From Parelaphostrongylus tenuis (lineage: Eukaryota; Nematoda; Chromadorea; Rhabditida; Metastrongylidae), in contig JAHQIW010000383.1 in NCBI GenBank assembly GCA_019055375.1, forward strand, positions 1 through 64,000: a stretch of DNA of 64,000 nucleotides, given 5' to 3'. Within the stretch, counting starts at the first letter, position 1. Every line of letters starts with the position of its first letter. The translations under genes and the position numbers were made by a program. The notes under the pieces were generated by a model. It worked only from the letters and a program-made list of their open reading frames with translations, did not search any database and had not been told where the DNA came from. Positions 4,765 through 53,900 of this stretch are shown piece by piece.

Positions 4765-5165
4765 TTTTTTGAAAAGAATGCTGCGATGTCTAATTTGTGG
4801 TTACAATATTTTCTCAATCCAAGCCATACCCAAAAATCATTATAGTAGCTAAGTAATAGAAAAGAGTTGACTGCTTGTCAAAATGATGCCGCACAGTGCT
4901 TGCAACACCAGATCACAGAGAGAACAGAATTTTTGGTATTTTAGTGATAACACTCTTCTTGCACGGACTTTCTTCTGAAGCAGGAGTCTCTCGACGAAAA
5001 TGAGCGAATAAGTGAGAATTGAGGATAAAACTTATTCAGGTGTCACATCGATTAATTCTTATGGTGCCCATAGGTATAACTTGTCTCGGTCCTAAGATAT
5101 GACTTTTAGAAAAGGTAAACTCTGTGAAGGCTTGACGGTTAACGGAATGGGGACGGGGAAAGGGT
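4765..5165. other. No feature recognised
   Basis: I see no convincing coding exon, RNA gene or repeat in this stretch between the mariner derivative and the hammerhead pair. Confidence 0.5.
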
Positions 5166-5169
5166 GCAT

Positions 5170-5218
5170 GGGCTACTGACGACGTGGGCGAGACCTCCGA
5201 AACACGCGTGTATGGCCC
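5170..5218 (+). ncRNA. Type-I hammerhead ribozyme, copy 1
   Basis: All three core strands are present in the order of a type-I hammerhead. The stem I 3' strand GGGCTA (5170-5175) is followed by CTGACGA (5176-5182, the CUGANGA box), a stem II segment (5183-5198) and GAA (5199-5201). Stem III is ACAC-GC-GTGT (5202-5211). The cleavage-site A follows at 5212, then the stem I 5' strand TGGCCC (5213-5218), which pairs with GGGCTA with one G-U pair. The predicted cut is after GUA at 5212. Stem II is imperfect here (GG/CC inner pairs with a mismatch), so activity may be reduced. The very short stem III is typical of hammerheads in metazoan retroelements and retrozymes. Confidence 0.8.
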
Positions 5219-5434
5219 TGACGTACCAACCTTGCCTAGACTTTAAACTTTATTTGAAATTAATTTGAATATTTATTGCGAGGTTTTTAAAACGGTCAAT
5301 GCCATGGATCAGTTTTGTTCTACCAGCCAAGATCCATCGACTGAGAAGTGGTGATGGACCAGTGTAATTATGCACTGGGTCTTCACCACATACGCCCCCC
5401 TCCTTGCTACAATGCAGGGCTTAATGTGGTTTGT

Positions 5435-5483
5435 GGGCTACTGATGAGAGGGGCGAGACCTCCGAAACACACGTGTATGGCTC
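5435..5483 (+). ncRNA. Type-I hammerhead ribozyme, copy 2
   Basis: The second copy lies 265 bp downstream in the same orientation. It has stem I GGGCTA (5435-5440), CTGATGA (5441-5447), stem II GAGG...CCTC (5448-5463, with one extra C), GAA (5464-5466), stem III ACAC-AC-GTGT (5467-5476) and A at 5477. The stem I partner TGGCTC (5478-5483) pairs with GGGCTA through Watson-Crick and G-U pairs. Differences from copy 1 fall at the free N7 position, in the stem III loop, as a G-C to G-U change in stem I, and in stem II. The catalytic residues are unchanged. Homology between the copies continues about 60 bp downstream (TTGC-T-AG-TTTAAAC). Confidence 0.82.
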
Positions 5484-5576
5484 TGGCGTGCCAATCTTGC
5501 TTAGGTTTTAAACATTCTTTTTTTTGTATTAATTTTTCCTTATAGTTTTATTGGTTGAATATGACATTTTTTTTTC

Positions 5577-21439: not shown

Positions 21440-21540
21440 ATATCTGACTTGGGAGCCCAGAATGAGCCATCAGACTATATCGCTTCAAACAGTTCCCAAG
21501 ACCGACTGTCTATTAACCTCGGCATGCTTCAGTATGATTC

Positions 21541-21645
21541 TTGATTATCTTCTTTGAGCAGAACACGAGGTGTTACATTAAACTTTATTCGATAGCTGAC
21601 GTTTCGGCAGTTCGCCTTCTTCAGAGCCTGGAAAGGTCAAAATGT
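21541..21645 (-). mobile_element. Penelope-like element 3' terminus with CUGANGA/GAAA motif
   Basis: The - strand reads CAGGCTCTGAAGAAGGCGA, then ACTGCCGAAACGTCAGC and AATAAAGTTT. CTGAAGA fits CUGANGA, GGC-GAACT-GCC is a short stem II, and GAAA follows. This is the arrangement known at termini of Penelope-like retroelements that carry hammerhead motifs. The pairing of stems I and III is unclear. No GIY-YIG coding remains next to it. Confidence 0.55.
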
Positions 21646-21649
21646 TTGC

Positions 21650-23820
21650 AATACAATCAGTCAAACATCTCCATTACTTCTTTAGAAAAAATCACCAGAC
21701 CTGGATTTCAATTGCATCAAGCAAAAATCAACACTCAACATACTCACCGCTTTTTATGTGTGTTCCACTGAATGATCCAAGTGGAGATCACCGGAAAGAG
21801 AGACACATAGGCTCGTATGCACTCCACCCATCAAAACAACACTCTTATATACTGGCTCATATCACGAGTGTTTACGAGGCATTCCTCCCTGCGGTTTATG
21901 GTTGGATTGGTCGTATTAAAAGATTATTGCGCTTTAATTATCGACGATGTGATATCGCATGCAGTGTGCAGCATTATTTTGTCGAACTAAACGCTGTCTT
22001 GCAATTTTCAAAGACTATGCTAATTTTCGCCATTGTATGGAATAAAAAGATACATAACTGTTAGATTGATGTTGTGATACTTTATTTTGGAAGGACATTT
22101 GACTTCTTATTCATTTGTTGTAATGTATGAGAGTGAATTGCTGTTGATATGACAAATAAAAGATATATATATTGAAATATGAGTAAATCTAAGTAAACCG
22201 GTATAAGAACGTTGAGTAATAGATCGAATTTCTCCTTTCGTAAGGAACTGGTTTTCACCCGCAAAGATGCAGTATTTTGGAGGAAAGATTCGCGATGTTT
22301 TCAGTACCAACAAACTTAGTGTGGTCTTTTCTATCATATTCTATCATTTACCCAAAACGTATTTCCCTTTAGTGACGATCAAAAGCTGATGTTAATAGGA
22401 AACACTGTCGCTGGAGTAATCCGGTCAATCGGCAACGCTTTGTATACAAAGCGAAATATCAGCACCGGTCTTTAACATGTTAACGTCGAAGAACTCCGTT
22501 ACTCACGTTCAACACCAAACCTAAACACTAAAAAAAACAGTAGAACCAAAAATCTGTTTGGAACCTGCATAACCAAAGCCTGTCAGTTTGAATGGGCTTA
22601 CGGCCAATATGTGCCGCCAGACAAAACCCACTAAAAGCTGGCTGGTGGCACCTACAATAGTTGATTTCGTAAAAGGAAAGCTAACAATGCTTGGCCCGAC
22701 GATGTAGGGGTAGCACGGGCTATCGATATAGATAAAACGTAGGTTCATATCTCCCTTGCTGTCTGCCTCTTAGGGTGGAACATTTCGCATACCACTGGAC
22801 AGTGCTTGAGTAGAAGAAAGAGAAGGAGAAGAAGAAGAGTGCTTTTGTAGTGCCGAGGTTCACGGTTTCAGTTGAGCCTCAATATTTTTTGGTTGCATTT
22901 CACATAGTGCTCTACGACAAAAAAGAGTAGACACAAAAAATCTGAAATATTTCACTTCATATTTGCAGGCAAACAAGTTATTCGAAAATATTTTTAATGC
23001 AAATCTACCATACACAACTGATTCCTTTGATCGCTGGTATTTCGCTTATCGCCTTTACCACTTCACTACATTCAATCTCAAGAAATACTACGTACTAAAA
23101 TTTAACAGCAATTTCCCTTCCTCTGTTTTCTCTCTGTTTGGTGGACAATATTTACCTACACATACTTTGATAGCGAAACAAGGACAGAAAGAAAAAAAAT
23201 ACAGCAGAGAAATTGAAATTCATGAGCAACATGGCTAATGGAAGATAACAAATTTTTTAGTCTCTGTATTGCAGTCAGTTCAGTAATGGTGACATTAATA
23301 GTTCACCGTTAGCTTACGAAACACACTTGTAGTCCTGTGGTTACCTTTAATAGAGAGATGAACGTTAAGCGGTTGATTATAAGTGTGAGAGTTGACGGAT
23401 CTGAAATAATCGTGGAACTAGGTAATGATCAATAGCAACATTCACATTCTAGCATTGGCTAAAATGAGGAAAATTTCACCCCGATAGCCTTCTTTTACAG
23501 GGTGCAGAACTTTAGCGAAATGCTCGTAAAGTTCTGATGAGACTAAGTTTGGTTGACTATGTAATGTTTTGGAGTCTTAAAAACAAAACTGCGTTGTTCA
23601 TCTTACGATGGGTGTAATACAACGTGAGCTCAAATCCACGGATTATTACATAGCGTCAAATGGTGAAAATAAAAATGATTTTTTCTGCACTTTTGCTCAC
23701 TTCTTAAGAAGATAACTTGATGCTATGTAATTACCAGGTTAGAAGGAAATGAAAGGAAATTGATGTGTTGCTCAGTAGAAGATGGTGACCATTGCTTTCT
23801 TGTGTGTCTCTTAATCTTAG
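21650..23820. other. No gene recognised
   Basis: Several open stretches occur (21642-22064 +, 140 codons; 22521-22748 -; 22963-23238 +, preceded by ATTTGCAG). None contains a motif I recognise, and none joins to a neighbour by convincing splicing. Confidence 0.4.
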
Positions 23821-31750: not shown

Positions 31751-32299
31751 TTAAAGGAGACGAACACAGGTTCTGAGGGAGTATTATCACCATGAAATGA
31801 TGGAATTTCATTGAAGCTTCTATAGAGGCGAACTTAGCAAAAAGATATCTATGTCTTCCATATTTTATTTATATTTTTTAAATTCAGCAAGAAAATTACA
31901 TTGCAAAATGATAACGATAGTGAAAACGACTACGAAATGGTACCGCAAGCCACGTAGTAAAAATATCTTGTTTCATTACCCTTGGTAAAAACGTTCCATA
32001 CATCGTCCGATGTGTTTACTGGAAGGGAACAGAGAGTGGAATCCTTGAAAATGGCTTGGGATATAGTCATTTCCACTGCCTACAAAGCTGCAGCAACTCG
32101 GTTTAGGTTTAGAGTAATAACGCAACCCTGAACGGTAGCTCCAACGAAAGCAAGGTCCCGTTAATTCTCTTTTTCTATTTGAAAGACATAAGTATAGCTA
32201 TAAAACTCTGTTTGAAAAGTGCACACTTGGAGAAATCGTAACGATTATTGAAATTTCACCGAATAGTTTAAGGAACCAACTGTTCGCAACTGTTTATAC

Positions 32300-32900
32300 G
32301 ACCGTTTACGTTAAACGAAAGAATGCATGATATGCCCTAACGGTAGAGACGGGGATTACATGAGCATGGGTACAGTCTACCTAAGTTCTTGTAAAACGTG
32401 CAGCGGTGTATATATTGGCAAAACGAGAAGACTCCTCTATATCTGTATGAAGGAACATAAAATACCATTAGGATCGCATAGGGCACAGGTGCAAACTCGC
32501 AGAGAAACGAAAAACTTCAGCGCGCAAAATACTCGAAAATTCTGGATTTATACTAAGAATCCAGTAATAAATCGGAAAGATTAATGCCCAGTGATTAGTA
32601 GTGATTTCGTTCCAAACGAACACATTTCTCTCTCATATATTACTCGGTGCGGCTGGTCCACAATATTGACTAGTGAACTGGTGAACAACATAATACGGTT
32701 ATTATTTTGATAAAAGCTGACTACTATACATTCCAGCTTCTACGATTTCTGTTAGGTTCACTTTATCTGGTTGTTAAAAGTGTTCACCTCTGTAGATAGC
32801 ACGTCAATTTGGCTTCTTCAGGCTCTGACGAAGGCGAAACTGCCGGAACGTAAACCACTGATACAAACTTTATTGTACCATTTCGTACAAAGTAAACATC
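32300..32900 (+). mobile_element. Penelope-like element, GIY-YIG domain and 3' end
   Basis: The frame 32327-32584 (85 codons) reads GTVYLSSCKTCSGVYIGKTR, a GIY-YIG endonuclease start (here VYL...VYIG), then an Arg-rich helix, KEHK, GSHRAQ and KNPVINRKD, the order found at the C-terminus of Penelope-like retroelement polyproteins. After the stop, the 3' region carries CAGGCTCTGACGAAGGCGAA followed by ACTGCCGGAACGTAAACC (32820-32857), the terminal hammerhead-like motif. The reverse transcriptase is missing upstream, so this is a 5'-truncated copy. Confidence 0.85.
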
Positions 32901-41960: not shown

Positions 41961-44900
41961 TGCATGTTGCCATTGCTTCAGAGAGCTAGCATCTGCAAAG
42001 GTTACTAGGATATAGTTGTCGGTCTTCATGCCTATGTAGCGTGGTAGGGAAATAGAGAATCCTTCTATTGCCGCCCAAATATCAGCCCATTGTAGTGTAT
42101 CTTCGTCTTATAGTAGTTGGTCCCATCCGTATCCCCGTGACCATAAGAATCGCAAGAAAACTTTTAATTTATGAAGGAGAGGTAAAAGGAATCCGAATGG
42201 ATCGAATATGGAGGCGAGTGTACTGGTTGCTACTCTCTTAGTAATTTTTTGATGAGTTTTCGTATCGCATGATAGCTGTATGTGATCTAAATGGATGTCC
42301 CAGGGGATTCCGAGTGCTTTGGGTAGTTTCTCGTTTAATTTATCGGGTGCTGCTATTTGGGACATCAAGGTTGCATCATTTGAATCAAACTCGCAAACAT
42401 TTATGCTTAAGTCATTGAATATTTGCTTCAAACGTGAATAATTGCGAAATGATTCTTCGAGATTGTCAGCAGTTAAGATGACGTTATCAACGTATAAGTT
42501 ATTCTTTATTTCTTCCACTAATCGGGAGTCTTGTTCGTACGTGCTAAGATGGTAATGAATTGTTGCCGCTAATAGAAACGGTGATGCAATCAATCCAAAG
42601 GTTACTCTAGTAAAGCGAAAAATCTTAACGTTACTTGGGATGGGCGGTAATCTATGATTTTGAGGCCATAAACAACGTGTAGAATCACGGTCATCTTCAT
42701 GGAGACGGATCTGCAAAAATGCTCTCTCAACATCCGCAGTGAGGGCTATTTTTCCAAATCTGAAACGAAGGAGGAGTCCGAATAGCTCTGGGAGAATGAC
42801 GGGTCCACGATGCAATGCGTCGTTTAATGATAGTTGACCCTTGTAATGGGCGGATGCATCGGAGACTATTCTGAGTTTGGTTGTTGCCTTGTTAGGTGTC
42901 AGAACAGCTTGATGTGGCATGTAATGGACACGAGAATTGGGTGGAGTGTCATAATCATAGACTTCTTCCAAAATATTTGATCTGATTTGTTCATTAAATA
43001 TATCATTGTATCTCTCTAGATGGTTTTCGTTGTTTTTTAAGGATTTCCAAACGCTTACTAGTCTGTTGAATGCAATAATTTGTTATCTGGTAATGAGTTA
43101 CATGATTCTTTCCAAGGGAGTCGAACATAATATCCATCGATTCTTTTCTGGATAGTTCGATTGAAGTCATTCCAAATTTCTAGTTCGATCTGTTTCTTCT
43201 CTTCATTTTCAGAATTTCCAAATTCTCGTGTTCCGGCATATTCTAAGGTGCAAAAACTTTCCCATTTTTTTTTCTTGGTCATCATGTATGAAGGCCGTAT
43301 TAACTTGAGCTTGTAGAGTCCAACTTTGCTCCCACATTACAATGTCGTCATACTTGTCATTATTGTCCGAGATTTGTTGTTCTATTTCTGACTGCTGCAG
43401 TCCTAGCAGTAGGTTGTGGTCTTTATGGTACGACTGTGACGTCTCCTGGGATTTACCGGTTGGTAAGTGTCCAAGAGTTGTTGGGAGTAAATAAAGACCT
43501 GATGGTAATTGGATGAGAGGTTTATCTGTTTTCATCAAAGTCCAGAGTTGATCACATCCGAGAAGGATGGAGGGCTGAATGGGTTGTTGATTTCGATTGA
43601 TTTCAATTTGGATGTCATTTTCGCTTATAAACTTTAAATCTTCAAGAGTCATATTTGGCATTTGAATTGGTTTTGAAATATTGCTGTGGGTGTACAAATT
43701 GAGGGAAATTCTATTACCATCCTTGTCCCACGCGTCTATAGAGATCTTTTTTGACCAATGTTCTTGTACAGTCTGGGCGCCAAACGTGTTAAGGCGTAAC
43801 TTAACTTGTCCATTTACTTTTACATCTATTCTTGCGCAAGTTTCTGGTCGATGAAGAGAGTTCAGCGCCCGAATCGAATAAGACATGTATCTTTTGTAGG
43901 CGCTTGGATTGTGGATTTAGCACGGTGAGCTGTCCACTGGTCAGGGATGCTGGGCGTCCTATAGTCTGTGCTGGTGTTTATGTCTTCAGTCAAAGTTCGA
44001 TATCCGACTACGTTTACGTTGTTCGCGTTAGTAGGGCCTTTTTGTTAATGTCTGCTATCCCTTTTAGGCTTTATACTAGTTGTAGGGTTTTGATTAGGGG
44101 CGGCAGAAAGGCAGCATGACGTGTGATGGGATTTCTGGCAATTGCGGCAGAATGTCCCTCTGCACTGCGCTGTGGTATGTGTTGCAGATGCGCATATGTG
44201 ACATCGCTTGCTATCTCTAAGGTACTGATATCTGTCCTGCGGCGTTTTGTAACGATCACATTGGAAAGGGTAATGGTTGCCTCTACAATACATGCAACTG
44301 TACTTGGGAAACTGTGGTCTCCTTTGTTGGTTGGTGTTTTGTCTATAAGTTGTATAAGTTGAAGGGCGTGAATCGGGTTTACTGGCGGTTATGTAACGCG
44401 TTATGAATTCCTCATTGGAGATTGTCTCCTCTAAGGATTGCTGAAGCGACTGCATGGTAAACGATGAACCAGCTGTTGTTCCACTAGCCAATACTTTCCT
44501 TTGCGTTTCGGGTAGAAATTTGGTCAAAACTTTAGTATACATATATTGACTGTTGGTATACTCACCCTTTTGAGCTAACTGGAATAGTATGGCCTACACG
44601 TTTTCGAATAGTACCCTTTGGTCATTTATAGCGTTTGAGCGAAGCGAAGTTTCTAACTTTTGAAGCAGTTGGGCGATGAGTGCTTCTGGGTTTGCGTATT
44701 TGGAGGTGAGAGCATGTATGGCCTTTTGATAGTTATCACTGCTGATTTGGAACTTTTTAATGGCCTTGAGGGGCTTCCCCTTCAAAGAGTTAATCAAATG
44801 GTTAAACTTTTGAAGGTCTGATATATCTTGTGAATGTACGTTTGCATTGTAGAGTTCCCAAAAATTGTCCCATTCCCAGATGTCGCCATTGAACGTGGGA

Positions 44901-47900
44901 ATAGGTATCGTGGGAAGCTCCATTTGTCGAACAATGGTTGTTTCTGTAGTTTCCTCTTTTTTAGTTGGCAGTTGGGAAGTCTGTGAATGCTCCGGTAGCT
45001 GCCGTAATGAATCAGTTTTCGTAGCAAAATGGTCGTGTACTCAAAGAAGTCGTCTAAGAGTTGTTGAGAATAGGTCAAGGTGTCCCTATAATTCTGTTCA
45101 ACATTATCTGGGTCAGGATGTATTTCCCCTAGTTTGTCAAGAAAAATATCTAGGTCTTTTTGTACGTTATCCCTCATCTTCACAACTACAGATAATGCAG
45201 CTTGACATTGGACTCTTGCGGAAGTGAGGTCTTCCAATGTTATGGAATTCTGTATTTGTATCTGGTCTTGCTTAAGTTTTACCAGTGTTTTTTCAAGTTG
45301 TTCAGAGGCTTTATAAAAGCCTCATTTTTGTGAGAAAGAACAAGACTATGTGCCATAGTTGCTCTAGTATGTTTGAAGTGAATATTTGAAATTAAAATTT
45401 GGAACAGGTAACTCGGTACCTGACTCCTTTGATTGCAAGTTTCGTTGGCTACTCGTATTCGAACAAAGTCGGCCAATGCACCAATGTGGTGGAGGGTTAG
45501 TGGTAAACCCGACCCCGAACTAAGGCGGCCAATGCACCAATGTGGTGGAGGTTCAGTGGTTTTTGATGTGTGGTCCCTGGATTTGTCTCAGGCAGTGACC
45601 CGATCGATATCTGAATATGGTTAGATTGTCCTTAGTGGCGCACTGACCTTTGTGCTGCACGCGTCGAACTTCCGGGTTGCGACGACTTTTGCCCTTTGAA
45701 GTGGCTGGTTGTCACTTCCAAGTTGCTACGGGCTGAACTTTGGTCTGTGTGACCGTGTCTTCTGCCAACTTGTCTCTTGTAACCGACAAGAGCACAAAGT
45801 TCAAATCCTTTATATGGGTTATACGAAACAATGTGGTGAAACCGAACAATGAAGTGGTACCACCAAACAATGCTGTAGTACCAAACAACCTATAATATAC
45901 ATACATTACTGTAATAATATAATAAGAACAGTATATATACGATTGCGACATTTCGTTATGTGAACATATGTCTGTTGAATGTGATGTATCGTCTTGTGGC
46001 GATAATATGGATAAGTGATCGTATTTGATGAGATGTATCGTCGTGTGACGATACAATGAATGTTGTTATTAACGGAGCATGACTAGGCGGCGGAGCCCGT
46101 TTGGGATTGCTATGTTCGCCCCCAAGTAGAACACCGGCGGCGGGATCCAGTGGGTGAGTATATAGTGTTAGCAGTGGGGTCGCTACTGATTATATATGGG
46201 CAGAATCCCTTAACCGCGGTGATGGGCCGAGCATAGCCTAAGTGAGTTTGCTCCGCCACGTTAGTGATATGTTCCGCTCACAATTCTATTGAGTTCATCT
46301 GACAGTTGTATGAACTCAACCTTATGATACCAATTAGTTACATGATAACGAGACTATGTGAGGAGAGCAATAATGAGTTGGCAATGAAATGAGGTGAGGT
46401 GGTCCGGGTGAGGTCAGACGACGGTTCGGATGATGCCCGTCGATCGAACTGCCTGTTGAGGTTGGTGGCAGCTGGGTGCCGCCCACGCCACTTGGACCAT
46501 TTCGTCTGAGGTCCTCGAACCTCTGCGGTAGCACTTGCTCTCTAGGGTCGTGGACCATCTGCGTTACCTAAATTATCATGTAATTCCCGAAAAGATAGCA
46601 AAACTCCGTTGGGAGGTTTGCTATAATGAGAATTCATGAATAATAATTTCAGCGATGTGAAATCTGGAGCATCAGTGTACACGCCTGGGAAACCATGCCA
46701 AAATGACACCGAATGTGCTGCATTTGCGCCAGCCTATTGTGACTTCGGTCTTTGTGTGAACCATGTAAGGGAAACTACAACAACGGCAACGACGGCGAAC
46801 CAACAACATCGGTAGAACCAACCGCTGACGACAGAACTGCCAACGTCAAAAAAACAAACTATGATGACTGAACCGCCAACAACAGCAGAATCAACGATGA
46901 CGTCGGAGCCGCCAACAACATCGAATTCAACGACGACGTCAGAACCGATAACAACATCAGAATCAACTACGACATCAGAACCGCCAATAACAACGGAATC
47001 AACTACGACATCAGAACGGCATACAACGACAGAATCGCCACTAACGACAACATCCTCAACAGCGACAGAATCAACGACGGCGGCAGTAGAATCAACAACA
47101 ACAGAAACAACTACGACGACAGAGCTGCCAAAAACGACACCATCAACTACGATAACAGAACCGCAAACAACAACAGAATCGCCTGTAACGACAACATCGT
47201 CAACAGCGACAGATTCAACGGCGGCGACAGCAGAATCAACAACAACAGAAACAATTACGACGACAGAATCACTAACAACGACACCATCAACTACGATAAC
47301 AGAACCGCAAACAACAACAGAATCGTCAGTAACGACAACACCGTCAACAACGACAGATTCAACAACGGCGGCAGTAGAATCAACAACAACAGAAACAACT
47401 ACCCCGACAGAATCACCAACAACGACACCATCAACTACGATAACAGAACCGCAAACAACAACAGAATCGTCAGTAACGACAACATCGTCAACAACGACAG
47501 ATTCAACGACGGCGACAGGAGAATCAACAACAACAGAAACAACTACGACGACAGAATCACCAACAACGACACCATCAACTACGATAACAGAACCGCAAAC
47601 AACAACAGAATCGTCCAGTAACGACAACATCGTCAACAACGACAGAATCAACGACGGCGACAGTAGAATCAACAACAACAGAAACAACTACGACGACAGA
47701 ATCACTAACAACGACACCATCAACTACGATAACAGAACCGCAAACAACAACAGAATCGCCAGTAACGACAACATCGTCAACAACGACAGATTCAACGACG
47801 GCGACAGTAGAATCAACAACAACAGAAACAACTACGACGACAGAATCACCAACAACGACACCATCAACTACGATAACAGAACCGCAAACAACAACAGAAT

Positions 47901-50900
47901 CGTCAGTAACGACAACATCGTCAACAACGACAGATTCAACGACGGCGACAGGAGAATCAACAACAACAGAAACAACTACGACGACAGAATCACTAACAAC
48001 GACACCATCAACTACGATAACAGAACCGCAAACAACAACAGAATCGCCAGCAACGACAACATCGTCAACAACGACAGATTCAACGATGGCGACAGTAGAA
48101 TCAACAACAACAGAAACAACTACGACGACAGAGGTCACCAACAACGACACCATCAACTACGATAACGGAAACGCAAACAACAACAGAATCGCCAGCAACG
48201 ACAACATCGTCAACAACGGCAGATTCAACGACGGCGACAGTAGAATCAACAACAACTAGAAACAACTACGACGACAGAGGTGCCAATAACGACACCATCA
48301 ACTACGATGACAGAACCGCAAACAACAACAGAATCGCCAGTAACGACAACATCGTCAACAACGACAGATTCAACGGCGGCGACAGTAGAATCAACAACAA
48401 CAGAAACAACTACGACGACAGAATCACTAACAACGACAACATCAACTACGATAACAGAACCGCAAACAACAACAGAATCGCCAGCAACGACAACATCGTC
48501 AACAACGACAGATTCAGCGATGGCGACAGTAGAATCAACAACAACAGAAACAACTACGACGACAGAATCACCAACAACGGCACCATCAACTACGATAACA
48601 GAAACGCAAACAACAACAGAATCGCCAGCAACGACAACATCGTCAACATACGGCAGATTCAACGACGGCGACAGTAGAATCAACAACAACAGAAACAAGT
48701 ACGACGACAGAGGTGCCAATAACGACACCATCAACTACGATAACAGAACCTCAAACAACAACAGAATGCGCCAGTAACGACAACATCGTCAACAACGACA
48801 GATTCAACGACGGCGACAGTAGAATCAACAACAACAGAAACAACTACGACGACAGAATCACTGACAACGACACCATCAACGACGATAACAGAACCGCAAA
48901 CAACAACAGAATCGCCAGCAACGACAACATCGTCAACAACGACAGATTCAGCGATGGCGACAGTAGAATCAACAACAACAGAAACAACTACGACGACAGA
49001 ATCACCAACAACGGCACCATCAACTACGATAACAGAAACGCAAACAACAACAGAATCGCCAGCAACGACAACATCGTCAACATCGGCAGATTCAACGACG
49101 GCGACAGTAGAATCAACAACAACAGAAACAACTACGACGACAGAATCACCAACAACGACACCATCAACTACGATAACAGAACCGCAAACAACAACAGAAT
49201 CGCCAGTAACGACAACATCGTCAACAACGACAGATTCATCGACGGCGACAGTAGAATCAACAACAACAGAACCAACTACGACGACAGAGGTGCCAATAAC
49301 GACACCATCAACTACGATAACAGAATCGCAAACAACAACAGAATGGCCAGTAACGACAACATCGTCAACGCAAACAACAACAGAATCGCCAGCAACGACA
49401 ACATCGTCAACAACGACAGATTCAACGACGGCGACAGTAGAATCAACAACAATAGAAACAACTACGACGACAGAGGTACCAATAACGACACCATCAACTA
49501 CGATGACGGAACCGCAAACAACAACAGAATCGCCAGTAACGACAACATCGTCAACAACGACAGATTCAACGACGGCGACAGTAGAATCAACAACAACAGA
49601 AACAACTACGACGACAGAATCACTAACAACGACAACATCAACTACGATAACAGAACCGCAAACAACAACAGAATCGCCAGCAACGACAACATCGTCAACA
49701 ACGACAGATTCAGCGATGGCGACAGTAGAATCAACAACAACAGAAACAACTACGACGACAGAATCACCAACAACGGCACCATCAACTACGATAACAGAAA
49801 CGCAAACAACAACAGAATCGCCAGCAACGACAACATCGTCAACAACGGCAGATTCAACGACGGCGACAGTAGAATCAACAACAATAGAAACAACTACGAC
49901 GACAGAGGTACCAATAACGACACCATCAACTACGATGACGGAACCGCAAACAACAACAGAATCGCCAGTAACGACAACATCGTCAACAACGACAGATTCA
50001 ACGACGGCGACAGTAGAATCAACAACAACAGAAACAACTACGACGACAGAATCACTAACAACGACAACATCAACTACGATAACAGAACCGCAAACAACAA
50101 CAGAATCGCCAGCAACGACAACATCGTCAACAACGACAGATTCAGCGATGGCGACAGTAGAATCAACAACAACAGAAACAACTACGACGACAGAATCACC
50201 AACAACGGCACCATCAACTACGATAACAGAAACGCAAACAACAACAGAATCGCCAGCAACGACAACATCGTCAACAACGGCAGATTCAACGACGGCGACA
50301 GTAGAATCAACAACAACAGAAACAAGTACGACGACAGAGGTGCCAATAACGACACCATCAACTACGATAACAGAACCTCAAACAACAACAGAATGGCCAG
50401 TAACGACAACATCGTCAACAACGACAGATTCAACGGCGGCGACAGTAGAATCAACAACAACAGAAGAACCACGACGACAGAATCACTGACAACGACACCA
50501 TCAACGACGATAACAGAACCGCAAACAACAACAGAATCGCCAGCAACGACAACATCGTCAACAACGACAGATTCAGCGATGGCGACAGTAGAATCAACAA
50601 CAACAGAAACAACTACGACGACAGAATCACCAACAACGGCACCATCAACTACGATAACAGAAACGCAAACAACAACAGAATCGCCAGCAACGACAACATC
50701 GTCAACATCGGCAGATTCAACGACGGCGACAGTAGAATCAACAACAACAGAAACAACTACGACGACAGAATCACCAACAACGACACCATCAACTACGATA
50801 ACAGAACCGCAAACAACAACAGAATCGCCAGTAACGACAACATCGTCAACAACGACAGATTCATCGACGGCGACAGTAGAATCAACAACAACAGAACCAA

Positions 50901-53900
50901 CTACGACGACAGAGGTGCCAATAACGACACCATCAACTACGATAACAGAATCGCAAACAACAACAGAATGGCCAGTAACGACAACATCGTCAACAACGAC
51001 AGATTCAACGACGGCGACAGTAGAATCAACAACAAAAGAAGCAAGTACGACGACAGAATCACCAACAACGACACCATCAACTACGATAACAGAACCGCAA
51101 ACAACAACAGAATCGCCAGTAACGACAACATCGTCAACAACGACAGATTCATCGACGGCGACAGTAGAATCAACAACAACAGAACCAACTACGACGACAG
51201 AGGTGCCAATAACGACACCATCAACTACGATGACGGAACCGCAAACAACAACAGAATCGCCAGTAACGACAACATCGTCAACAACGACAGATTCAACGAC
51301 GGCGGCAGTAGAATCAACAACAACAGAAACATCTACGCCGACAGAGCTGCCAGTAACGACATCATTGAATATGACGACAGCAATACCAACTACAAGGACA
51401 ACTAGAAGAAAGAGCACAGATTGTCCAAGCACGGCGTTCAGTTCTGCTTTCAGAGAAACGGCGTTGGGAATGCACAACAATTTCAGGTATTACATTCAAC
51501 AGATAATGAAACTTATAATAGGGATGCCTTACTGGGAATTCTTAGATTTAATGAGATATGATCGTGTTATCATAGTTATATTGCTAGAAAATATATTTGC
51601 GCAGATCGCTAGTTGCAAGAGGTCGAGCAGTCAACGCCGAACATCGCGGCGAATTTGCACCACCGGCCTCACGAATGGATGTGCTGGTACAGTTGGCCTC
51701 TTCAATTATCGTAGTGTCTTTCGCCGTTCAAATTCGTACACAAGGATAAGAGCACATTCAGGAATATGATTGCTATGCGGAGGCATACGCTCATGCACAT
51801 GTGAGGTCGTGTGATAGACGAGAATCTTCACATACTGCTCGACCTGGTTACGAAGAAAATGTTCACATTCTTCGAACAACTGCTACTGACGCATTGGGTG
51901 CTATTCAGAATGTAAATATCTATGCAAATGCATGTGGAATGCATTTTGACATTAATACAGTGGCAACTCTACATCACATATAATTATTATGCTTGTTCTC
52001 TACGTTCTAATCATTTCAACTTAGGCAATTGCAACGTTTCGTCGCGAACTCACATCAATCGGTGTTCCTTCAAATATGATATACACTTCATATTTGGAAA
52101 AGCGGACTTCCAGGCCGATGACTAGAATTTCCAAGGTTTGTACACTGCTTTGTAAGCATGACAAAATGCGTTGAGAAGCAGAAATCATTTTTATTCATCG
52201 TGATATGTTAACTTAATTTTTTCAAGTAACCAGAATTCTTCCTATAGGATGTCTATCTGATTATATAGCTCGTATCAGTTGGCAATCGTCTCATAGAAGC
52301 CTAAATCCTTACCTAGGTCGAATTGACTGGCTTCTACTTTAGAACATTGAAGCGTTCTTATTGCTCAAATTTGACCCTGATTGCTTGTTTCTAGCTGTAG
52401 AATGCAGATGAAGCAGGCGATTTATTTAAAAAAATATGTAAGGACAATGAGGAAGAGGGATATAAATGTTGCTGATAGTGACAGCAGCGTTGAAATTACT
52501 GGAACTACAGTGTTTTCGGCAAAGCTTATATGCCGGCTGAAGACTTCTGGTTACATGCTATTTCGTTACAAAAAATCTATTCCACAAATGATCAGATATA
52601 TGTGCAACTGTTTGCCCCAAATGCTGACTTGGGATTGTGTCTAATGGAATACTATCTAGCCATAATCAATCTAAATAATATGCAATCGGATGTACATGGA
52701 AAGGTTTAAGGCAGATGTTTTGCTAAGAATAACCAAGACATATTAATGGTGTGGGCTACATTATGTCGATTATATTTTGTTCAGTTATAAAAAGTCAAAC
52801 ATAAGGTTGAAAAGAAAGTTTTGGGCACTTTAATAAGCATAAATAGTCCTATGCATATCATGGGCTTATTACAGTACCTTATGTGTAAATTTCCTTTTTC
52901 GAAGGCTCACTGACACAACTGTATTAATTTATCCAATCAGCTTAACCTTGCTCACAGAAGCCACGGCATGATTCGCACGAACTCACCAAAAAGTAAGCTG
53001 CCAAAAGAGTGGAATTTGTTGCTAATACTCAACAATCCACTGAATGACTGACTTTGGTGCATTGTGACTTCGGACAAGAAATGGGTGTACCCGGTCAGCT
53101 ACGATCCGGACAAACAGTGGGTTAAAAAGGATCACACTATGCCGTCAGTCCTGAAGCACAACCGGTCTGACAAGAAGGTCATGATCTGTGTCTGGTGAAT
53201 TTTTGAAGGAGTCGCGCATTTTGAGTTAGTTCCAAATGGCATAAGCTATAAATTTTGAGCTTTATTGTCAGCAGTTAGGCCAAGTCTATGACAAGCTTGA
53301 GGAGAAGTACCGCCTCTGGTCAATCGAAAACTCGTTTGATGCAGCAACACAATGCGAAAAAGCACACTTCCAAAAAGATCAAAGGCAAGTTTGATGAATT
53401 ATATTGCGCTCCATGCGATTTTGCCCTTCTCCGATCGATATATTTTCTTAATGGTCGCCGATTAAAAGTTAGATGAAGTCAAGGAAACATGTCAAGAGTT
53501 TTTTGATTTCAAGTTGAACGAATGGCGATTTCGGCCAGATACGAAACTTGGCGAACTGATGGCAGAAAGTCGTTGAAATGATGGCCTTTACTTTGAAGAG
53601 TAGTTTTATTGCCTTTGATTGAAATTCATAAATCTTTAACTTTTATAGCTGCTCCAGATTCAACTTTCCACCTTTTCAAATCAATTAGCATCGTGTGAAA
53701 CTTTTTGTTTATGATTCCTTGCAGGTTATCTGGGGGACAAACAGATACGTTGGTTGTGCAACCCATGTGTGCAGTGGTTTTTACTTTACTTCATGCATGT
53801 ACCGAGCTCCGTGAGACTTTGGCAGGTTGTTAAATCTGTGAAGTATGTAAATGTTTCACGGTTTCAGGGTGAACTTGATTGGATCGAGTATTTACTCTAT

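Follow-up and report, generated by a model that had tools for sequence, protein, structure and literature searches.

In the accessible parts of PMC7229834, non-LTR retrozymes of animals are described from coral, mussel and axolotl, and there and in the accessible text of PMC7761336 they are said to occur in rotifers, flatworms, annelids, crustaceans and insects as well. The same portions of both papers name Penelope-like elements (PLEs) as 'a strong candidate' for moving them, the case being built on co-existence, type I hammerheads in common and tandem copies. A word search of this available text returned no mention of nematodes in either paper and no inverted arms in PMC7229834, where the 11 words in 'invert' read 'invertebrate'. 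Titles and abstract openings in the literature, a scope that mostly leaves subscription papers outside, yielded no nematode retrozyme and no retrozyme with a PLE tail. As to PLEs, the purified anole protein cuts and extends both strands, and its reverse transcription starts internally, at two sites bounding the genomic 'tail' (PMC11167929). The PLEs of Adineta, as far as the accessible part of PMC3846280 describes them, carry an optional tail on one inverted pLTR, occur most often as head-to-head inverted repeats, and have duplications of 8-10 bp where these are given.

Here, we analyzed a stretch of 64,000 nucleotides from the nematode Parelaphostrongylus tenuis (hereafter, the window), in which a pair of type I hammerhead ribozymes in direct repeat had been predicted. 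The sequence agrees with this prediction at 5170-5218 and 5435-5483, and the proposed cuts after 5212 and 5477, with a 265-nt unit between them, proved exact. Both hammerheads are open at stem I, which makes them type I. With up to 3 mismatches allowed, a degenerate core pattern had two matches in the 64-kb window, both of them these hammerheads, and 0 in 100 dinucleotide shuffles. The features of the retrozyme copy, all on the forward strand, are given below, where S and L stand for the two 3'-end positions of the family that are defined further on.

5163..5524, +, whole retrozyme copy (BLAST with the unit of a relative, segments 220-269, 1-269 and 1-47)
5170..5218, +, hammerhead 1 (sequence, type I order, predicted cut after 5212): GGGCTA 5170-5175, CTGACGA 5176-5182, stem II 5183-5198, GAA 5199-5201, stem III with 2-nt loop ACAC-GC-GTGT 5202-5211, A 5212, TGGCCC 5213-5218
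5213..5477, +, 265-nt unit that the two predicted cuts would release (sequence, BLAST)
5228..5235, +, 5' strand of a predicted tail helix, AACCTTGC, before the S site (sequence and predicted pairing)
5258..5318, +, S-to-L stretch of the full unit (family majority letters aligned with the PLE tail; ends of relatives)
5278..5285, +, 3' strand of the predicted tail helix, GCGAGGTT, between the S and L sites (sequence and predicted pairing)
5348..5389, +, long hairpin inside the unit (reverse-strand profile matches at unit positions 136-180; fold)
5435..5483, +, hammerhead 2 (sequence, predicted cut after 5477)
5521..5524, +, right outer end at the S site (CATTCTTTTTTT)

Hammerhead 1 has stem I GGGCTA/TGGCCC, a 4-bp stem III and a stem II with two mismatches; when it is placed in an alignment of 97 near-full units from 58 loci, its core is intact and 13/15 helix pairs are formed (3/5 in stem II). 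Hammerhead 2, with stem I GGGCTA (5435-5440)/TGGCTC (5478-5483), core CTGATGA and one stem II mismatch, likewise has an intact core in this alignment and forms 14/15 pairs (4/5 in stem II). Every pair of stems I and III is formed in both copies, and the missing pairs all fall in stem II, where mismatches had been noted in both. The covariance-model check proposed for 5100-5560 went the other way: Rfam reported no hammerhead there at E up to 10, nor in the entire window at the gathering threshold, and neither copy reached the 34 bits of RF00163 (Hammerhead_1). A better-preserved relative, L013, was missed by Rfam as well, and among the RF00163 matches elsewhere in the genome (31 places, 20 above cut-off), the eight examined belong to a second family. 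Because L013 was missed and RF00163 detects a family with another stem II, we take the silence of Rfam as that of a model too narrow in sequence to refute the assignment. Minimum-free-energy folding of the single hammerheads did not return the hammerhead fold, and the free energy of hammerhead 2 is no better than that of shuffles (z +1.54). The identification, made at the level of sequence, draws on motif, family and geometry, with neither Rfam nor free energy contributing to it.

In the window copy, a partial unit bearing hammerhead 1 is followed by the complete 265-nt unit, which bears hammerhead 2, and then by ~47 nt from the start of another unit. It has one arm, whose 3' end lies at the S site (5524 by BLAST, 5521 or 5535 by other methods); the L end, at about unit position 101-106, is not an end in this copy, and no target-site duplication was recognized around it (score 4). 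The 265-nt unit has a GC content of 0.45 and a circular fold with z -2.5. Its segments 5228..5235 and 5278..5285 would pair into a tail helix, and ACCTCG stands at the 5' strand of this predicted helix in most relatives and in the PLE, while the long hairpin shows as a self-inverted match in most near-full relatives. No open reading frame of at least 110 aa overlaps 5163-5524, this interval holds no reverse transcriptase or GIY-YIG frame (such frames lie at other loci of the genome), and no LTR was seen in the anatomy of the copy. These data indicate that the window copy is a decayed, one-armed member of a non-autonomous retrozyme family of the animal type. Elsewhere in the window, frames of a BEL/Pao-kind LTR retrotransposon occupy 42108-44542 (-), with RVT_1 and Pao retrotransposon peptidase domains at 42108-42971, and long, repetitive, threonine/serine-rich frames on both strands at 46734-51769 likely represent a mucin-like tandem repeat region.

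To place the copy among its relatives, we searched the genome (481.5 Mb, 5,105 contigs). The 314-bp stretch of the window that spans the two hammerheads matched at least 40 loci, with best matches per locus 81-86% identical. A 19-base ribozyme half gave 1,313 genome matches at up to 1 mismatch and its reversed control 0; when lengthened to take in stem III and the beginning of stem I, the pattern gave 479 matches at up to 1 mismatch, again with 0 in the control. A scan of IMG/VR with the ribozyme half gave 0 matches. The view of the locus as a decayed member of a dispersed retrozyme-like family is therefore supported, and the search for further tandem copies, which had been offered as a possible refutation, turned up many. 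In the alignment of 97 units, the core is intact in 41, intact with at least 13/15 pairs in 33, and accompanied by all 15 pairs in 6, shares that are biased upwards because a match at or near the ribozyme was how the loci had been selected. Two neighboring stem I pairs co-vary above independence (0.918 vs 0.879 and 0.959 vs 0.867), and for the remaining hammerhead pairs of the 97 units covariation is not clearly beyond independence. Across the whole unit, covariation gave no support, the paired share of cells being 0.913, compared with a mean of 0.908 and a maximum of 0.913 in shuffles.

We mapped the arms and ends of 61 loci, comprising the window, the 20 next-best matches, and 40 from the 100 listed ribozyme-half places, taken in listing order. 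The apparent duplicate C2270 was excluded from the 20-locus set; from the 40-locus set we excluded the apparent duplicate C57, two C60 places that were already included, and C83. The orientations were '-+' at 40 loci, '-+-+' at 1, '+' at 11, '-' at 9 and '+-' at none. Hence, 41/61 loci have head-to-head double arms, with the 5' sides joined and the 3' ends outward, and tail-to-tail arrangements number 0. The 3' ends are mostly bimodal, lying either about 45-65 nt (S) or about 95-117 nt (L) past the hammerhead cut, with some elsewhere. With each end classed by the vote of three end-calling methods, both ends could be assigned at 34 of the 41 double-armed loci, and 31 of these have one S and one L end, the exceptions being two S+S loci (L055 and L076) and one L+L locus (L028). 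The other 7 have an unclassed end. At L041, the script called a cluster at the edge of the stretch analyzed, and the left end is unclassed. When right ends were permuted, 31 S+L loci were never reached in 20,000 rounds (maximum 27); end calling by a single method gave S+L in 28/31. Since L019 and L025 (contig C2269) are 92% identical over 6.2 kb, the independent count is 30/33. One-armed loci end at S in 15 cases and at L in 4, and 1 is unclassed.

Target-site duplications were scored at 59/61 loci, L025 and one locus with too short a flank being left out. The mean score was 7.71 vs 5.90 with permuted flanks (max 6.56 in 500), and 18/59 loci scored at least 10 vs 2.0% of controls; L074, L052, L059, L077 and L068 are among those with clean duplications of 10-14 bp. 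The inner 5' ends vary in position and cluster mildly at unit positions 200-222. The longest arm measures 645 nt, and 26/101 arms have a length of at least 310 nt, which means that copying passed beyond one unit. We considered the 5' ends as evidence of cut linear templates and rejected this, as 10/101 lie at positions 1-5 and some of these are alignment breaks. Identity between laps is weak as proof of a circle: divergence between laps (0.176) and between arms (0.178) of one locus is modestly lower than that between loci (0.219), and the nearest neighbor came from the same locus in 8/73 cases, with 1.1 expected. The idea that a PLE body surrounds the retrozyme copies was also rejected, since the flanks of the 20 loci and the window have no common element body; they have many short or low-identity repeats in common. 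As a separate observation, the 6.2 kb held in common by L019 and L025 is a duplicated segment that includes the retrozyme.

The RF00163 loci (L029-L036) form a second retrozyme-like family, family B, with ~283-nt spacing and seemingly younger than the family of the window. The eight loci examined have a different stem II, GTC..GAC-like, a form that the search pattern itself required. By eye, the family B tail, AGACC..CTTATCA..GGGTCT..GCAGTCGA, has the same layout as that of the window family. A 24-base pattern from this tail gave 1,174 genome matches at up to 2 mismatches (control 0), the 100 listed being exact. Among these 100, neighbors within 2 kb were oriented '++' in 12 cases, '-+' in 11, '--' in 9 and '+-' in 0, and the same-strand spacings were 280-284 nt in 19/21, with one run of six units. 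S and L ends, called by eye, were found together in 2/3 double-armed loci (L033, which is repeated by L034, and L035); L030 is ambiguous.

We then turned to the PLEs of the same genome, where 150 GIY-YIG matches were scored out of 1,723 candidates. The open frame of L084 holds RVT_1 and GIY-YIG domains, and the named relatives of its protein are from strongylids (Ancylostoma, Haemonchus, Necator, Angiostrongylus and others). For a COX1 fragment, the closest named relatives are mixed nematodes at 89-91%, and two unnamed ones reach 94 and 96%. The COX1 result points to a nematode and no further, and the hookworm type suggested in the original prediction was not confirmed. Neighbors within 6 kb among the 150 scored matches were '-+' in 20 cases, '--' in 1, '++' in 1 and '+-' in 0. 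All 10 of the '-+' pairs examined carry one S and one L tail, as called by script, and two further PLE pairs, located in sequence flanking L053 and L078, are also S+L. Single PLE ends were S in 9/10 and L in 1/10. Just before the tail, 8/10 PLE loci have a hammerhead-like motif without stem III (CTGAAGA...GAAACG), which is altered in L087 and L088, copies of one locus. One PLE arm lies in the window itself:

21490..21919, -, truncated arm of a likely helper PLE (95.6% to L080, 98.9% to the L093 tail)

This arm has a minimal-hammerhead-like motif and an L-type tail end at about 21490, as called by script. At 31932-32886, the window contains older PLE fragments with about 71-84% identity to the PLEs of the genome. 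At L047 (700-1081), a retrozyme copy stands, by eye, directly behind an S-type-like PLE tail in the same direction, suggestive of either one insertion inside another or a jump between templates.

Between S and L, the PLE tail and the retrozyme can be aligned colinearly, with a score of 38 (z 6.1) against a null of 17.6 (sd 3.3) and 1/2,000 shuffles, in a test made after the similarity had been seen by eye. The entire PLE tail gave z 2.85 against the retrozyme and the portion before S gave z 0.0; the monomer windows scoring best against the PLE tail were those over positions 1-110. When the unit was compared with ten PLE loci by plain BLAST, nothing was found (best E 0.29), a null that is limited because nine of the ten end at S and so are without the S-L stretch. 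Retrozyme and PLE are also alike in a predicted pairing across S, between an ACCUCG-type segment before it and a CGAGGU-type segment after it. Collectively, the retrozyme insertions bear the signature of a PLE, including the one-S-one-L rule that they have in common with the PLEs of the same genome, together with a similar tail stretch. The original prediction was right about the retrozyme unit; the head-to-head layout of the arms, their two fixed end positions and the link to PLEs escaped it.

Given this signature in the retrozyme copies, copying of retrozyme RNA by a PLE protein is the most economical explanation. The window family probably represents a self-excising retrozyme, likely circularized, and likely copied by the reverse transcriptase-endonuclease of a PLE with a similar tail; cleavage, circles and PLE action on the retrozyme are what we infer from the genomic pattern. 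The role of the ribozyme would be to free the unit RNA for circularization. The PLE protein would bind the tail hairpin of the retrozyme, and its GIY-YIG domain would make a staggered double cut in the target, each 3' end of which could prime reverse transcription, one at L and the other at S. The cDNAs would travel along a multimer or around the circle, in some cases beyond a single lap, halt at variable points and then be joined head to head. The retrozyme is, in short, likely a tail parasite of PLEs that is copied from circular or multimeric RNA, and the multi-lap arms, the regular spacing of family B and the paired ribozymes are our grounds for a circular template. SINEs are non-coding and use the reverse transcriptase of a partner LINE via a common 3' tail. 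By analogy, animal retrozymes may be to PLEs what SINEs are to LINEs: an RNA circle with the start-site tail of a PLE would be copied from L on one target strand and from S on the other, and two reverse transcriptases may chase around one circle to leave multi-lap head-to-head arms. We put this sharper version forward tentatively, as nearly an even call that leans slightly against it, marked down since the similarity was known before the tail was tested and a single circle is itself deduced.

The same PLE machinery might instead use a linear, uncut multimer as template, which would make ribozyme and circles irrelevant to transposition. In vitro, the anole PLE hammerhead is dispensable for insertion: its mutants insert equally well, and the substrate is mainly RNA that has not been processed (PMC11167929). 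The mild cluster of 5' ends at 200-222 would fit a transcript start just before the hammerhead, and the laps are only weakly concerted. Against these points, six-unit runs of family B and 645-nt arms, more than 2 laps, would need long tandem source loci, and the two co-varying stem I pairs suggest that the hammerhead fold was kept in source copies. We regard a linear template as somewhat unlikely. A different pedigree with the same movement is conceivable if the unit were a PLE derivative, namely a pseudo-LTR, solo or internally deleted, that kept its hammerhead. The S-L tail and the insertion geometry are common to both, and PLEs do have a hammerhead-like motif just before the tail; however, the comparisons gave no match of the unit to the PLE outside S-L, and the hammerheads differ, with a 4-bp stem III in the retrozyme and none in the PLE motif. 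This origin appears distinctly unlikely to us. The short unit in direct repeat and the silence of Rfam might also suggest satellite DNA or a chance hammerhead look-alike, with tandem copies produced by unequal exchange and without retrotransposition, but the dispersed loci, unrelated flanks, fixed ends, duplications and pattern controls of 0 rule this out, and we give it almost no credence. Of these readings, a self-excising retrozyme copied by PLE protein is the one we carry forward.

Taken together, these results are genomic evidence, at the level of sequence, for a retrozyme-PLE partnership that was earlier proposed on co-existence. The PLE signature in retrozyme insertions makes this partnership testable with purified PLE protein, the S/L pattern can be checked by sequence in other genomes that carry retrozymes, and the family adds nematodes to the hosts of retrozymes. 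Plant LTR retrozymes (PMC4918200, via the accessible text of PMC7229834 and PMC7761336) are similar in having a non-coding, hammerhead-bounded unit thought to move as circles; their type III hammerheads, LTRs, ~700-bp repeats and 4-bp duplications, as given in the available parts of PMC7229834 and PMC7761336, have no counterpart here. The likeness is closer with the animal non-LTR retrozymes, in which, according to the accessible parts of PMC7229834, type I hammerheads bound a short non-coding unit in direct repeat, GC is below 50% and PLEs are present in the genome too. The 265-nt unit falls within the 150-450 bp given there, and duplications of >4 bp, as in that text, are found here at the level of the family, not in the window copy. 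Unlike the animal retrozymes in that portion of PMC7229834, the present ones have a nematode host, mostly head-to-head double arms, two fixed 3' ends, one each per insertion, and a PLE-like tail. They resemble PLEs with minimal hammerheads (PMC11167929 and the accessible part of PMC3846280), which have head-to-head arms, an optional tail on one arm, short duplications and a hammerhead near the 3' tail. This PLE-type insertion pattern belongs to the family as a whole, the window copy itself being one-armed. What sets the retrozyme unit apart from PLEs is the lack of a frame for reverse transcriptase or GIY-YIG and the presence of stem III in its hammerhead. Like SINEs that share the tail of a LINE, it would borrow the reverse transcriptase of a partner; unlike them, its partner would be a PLE, the starts would be internal and the template may be a circle.
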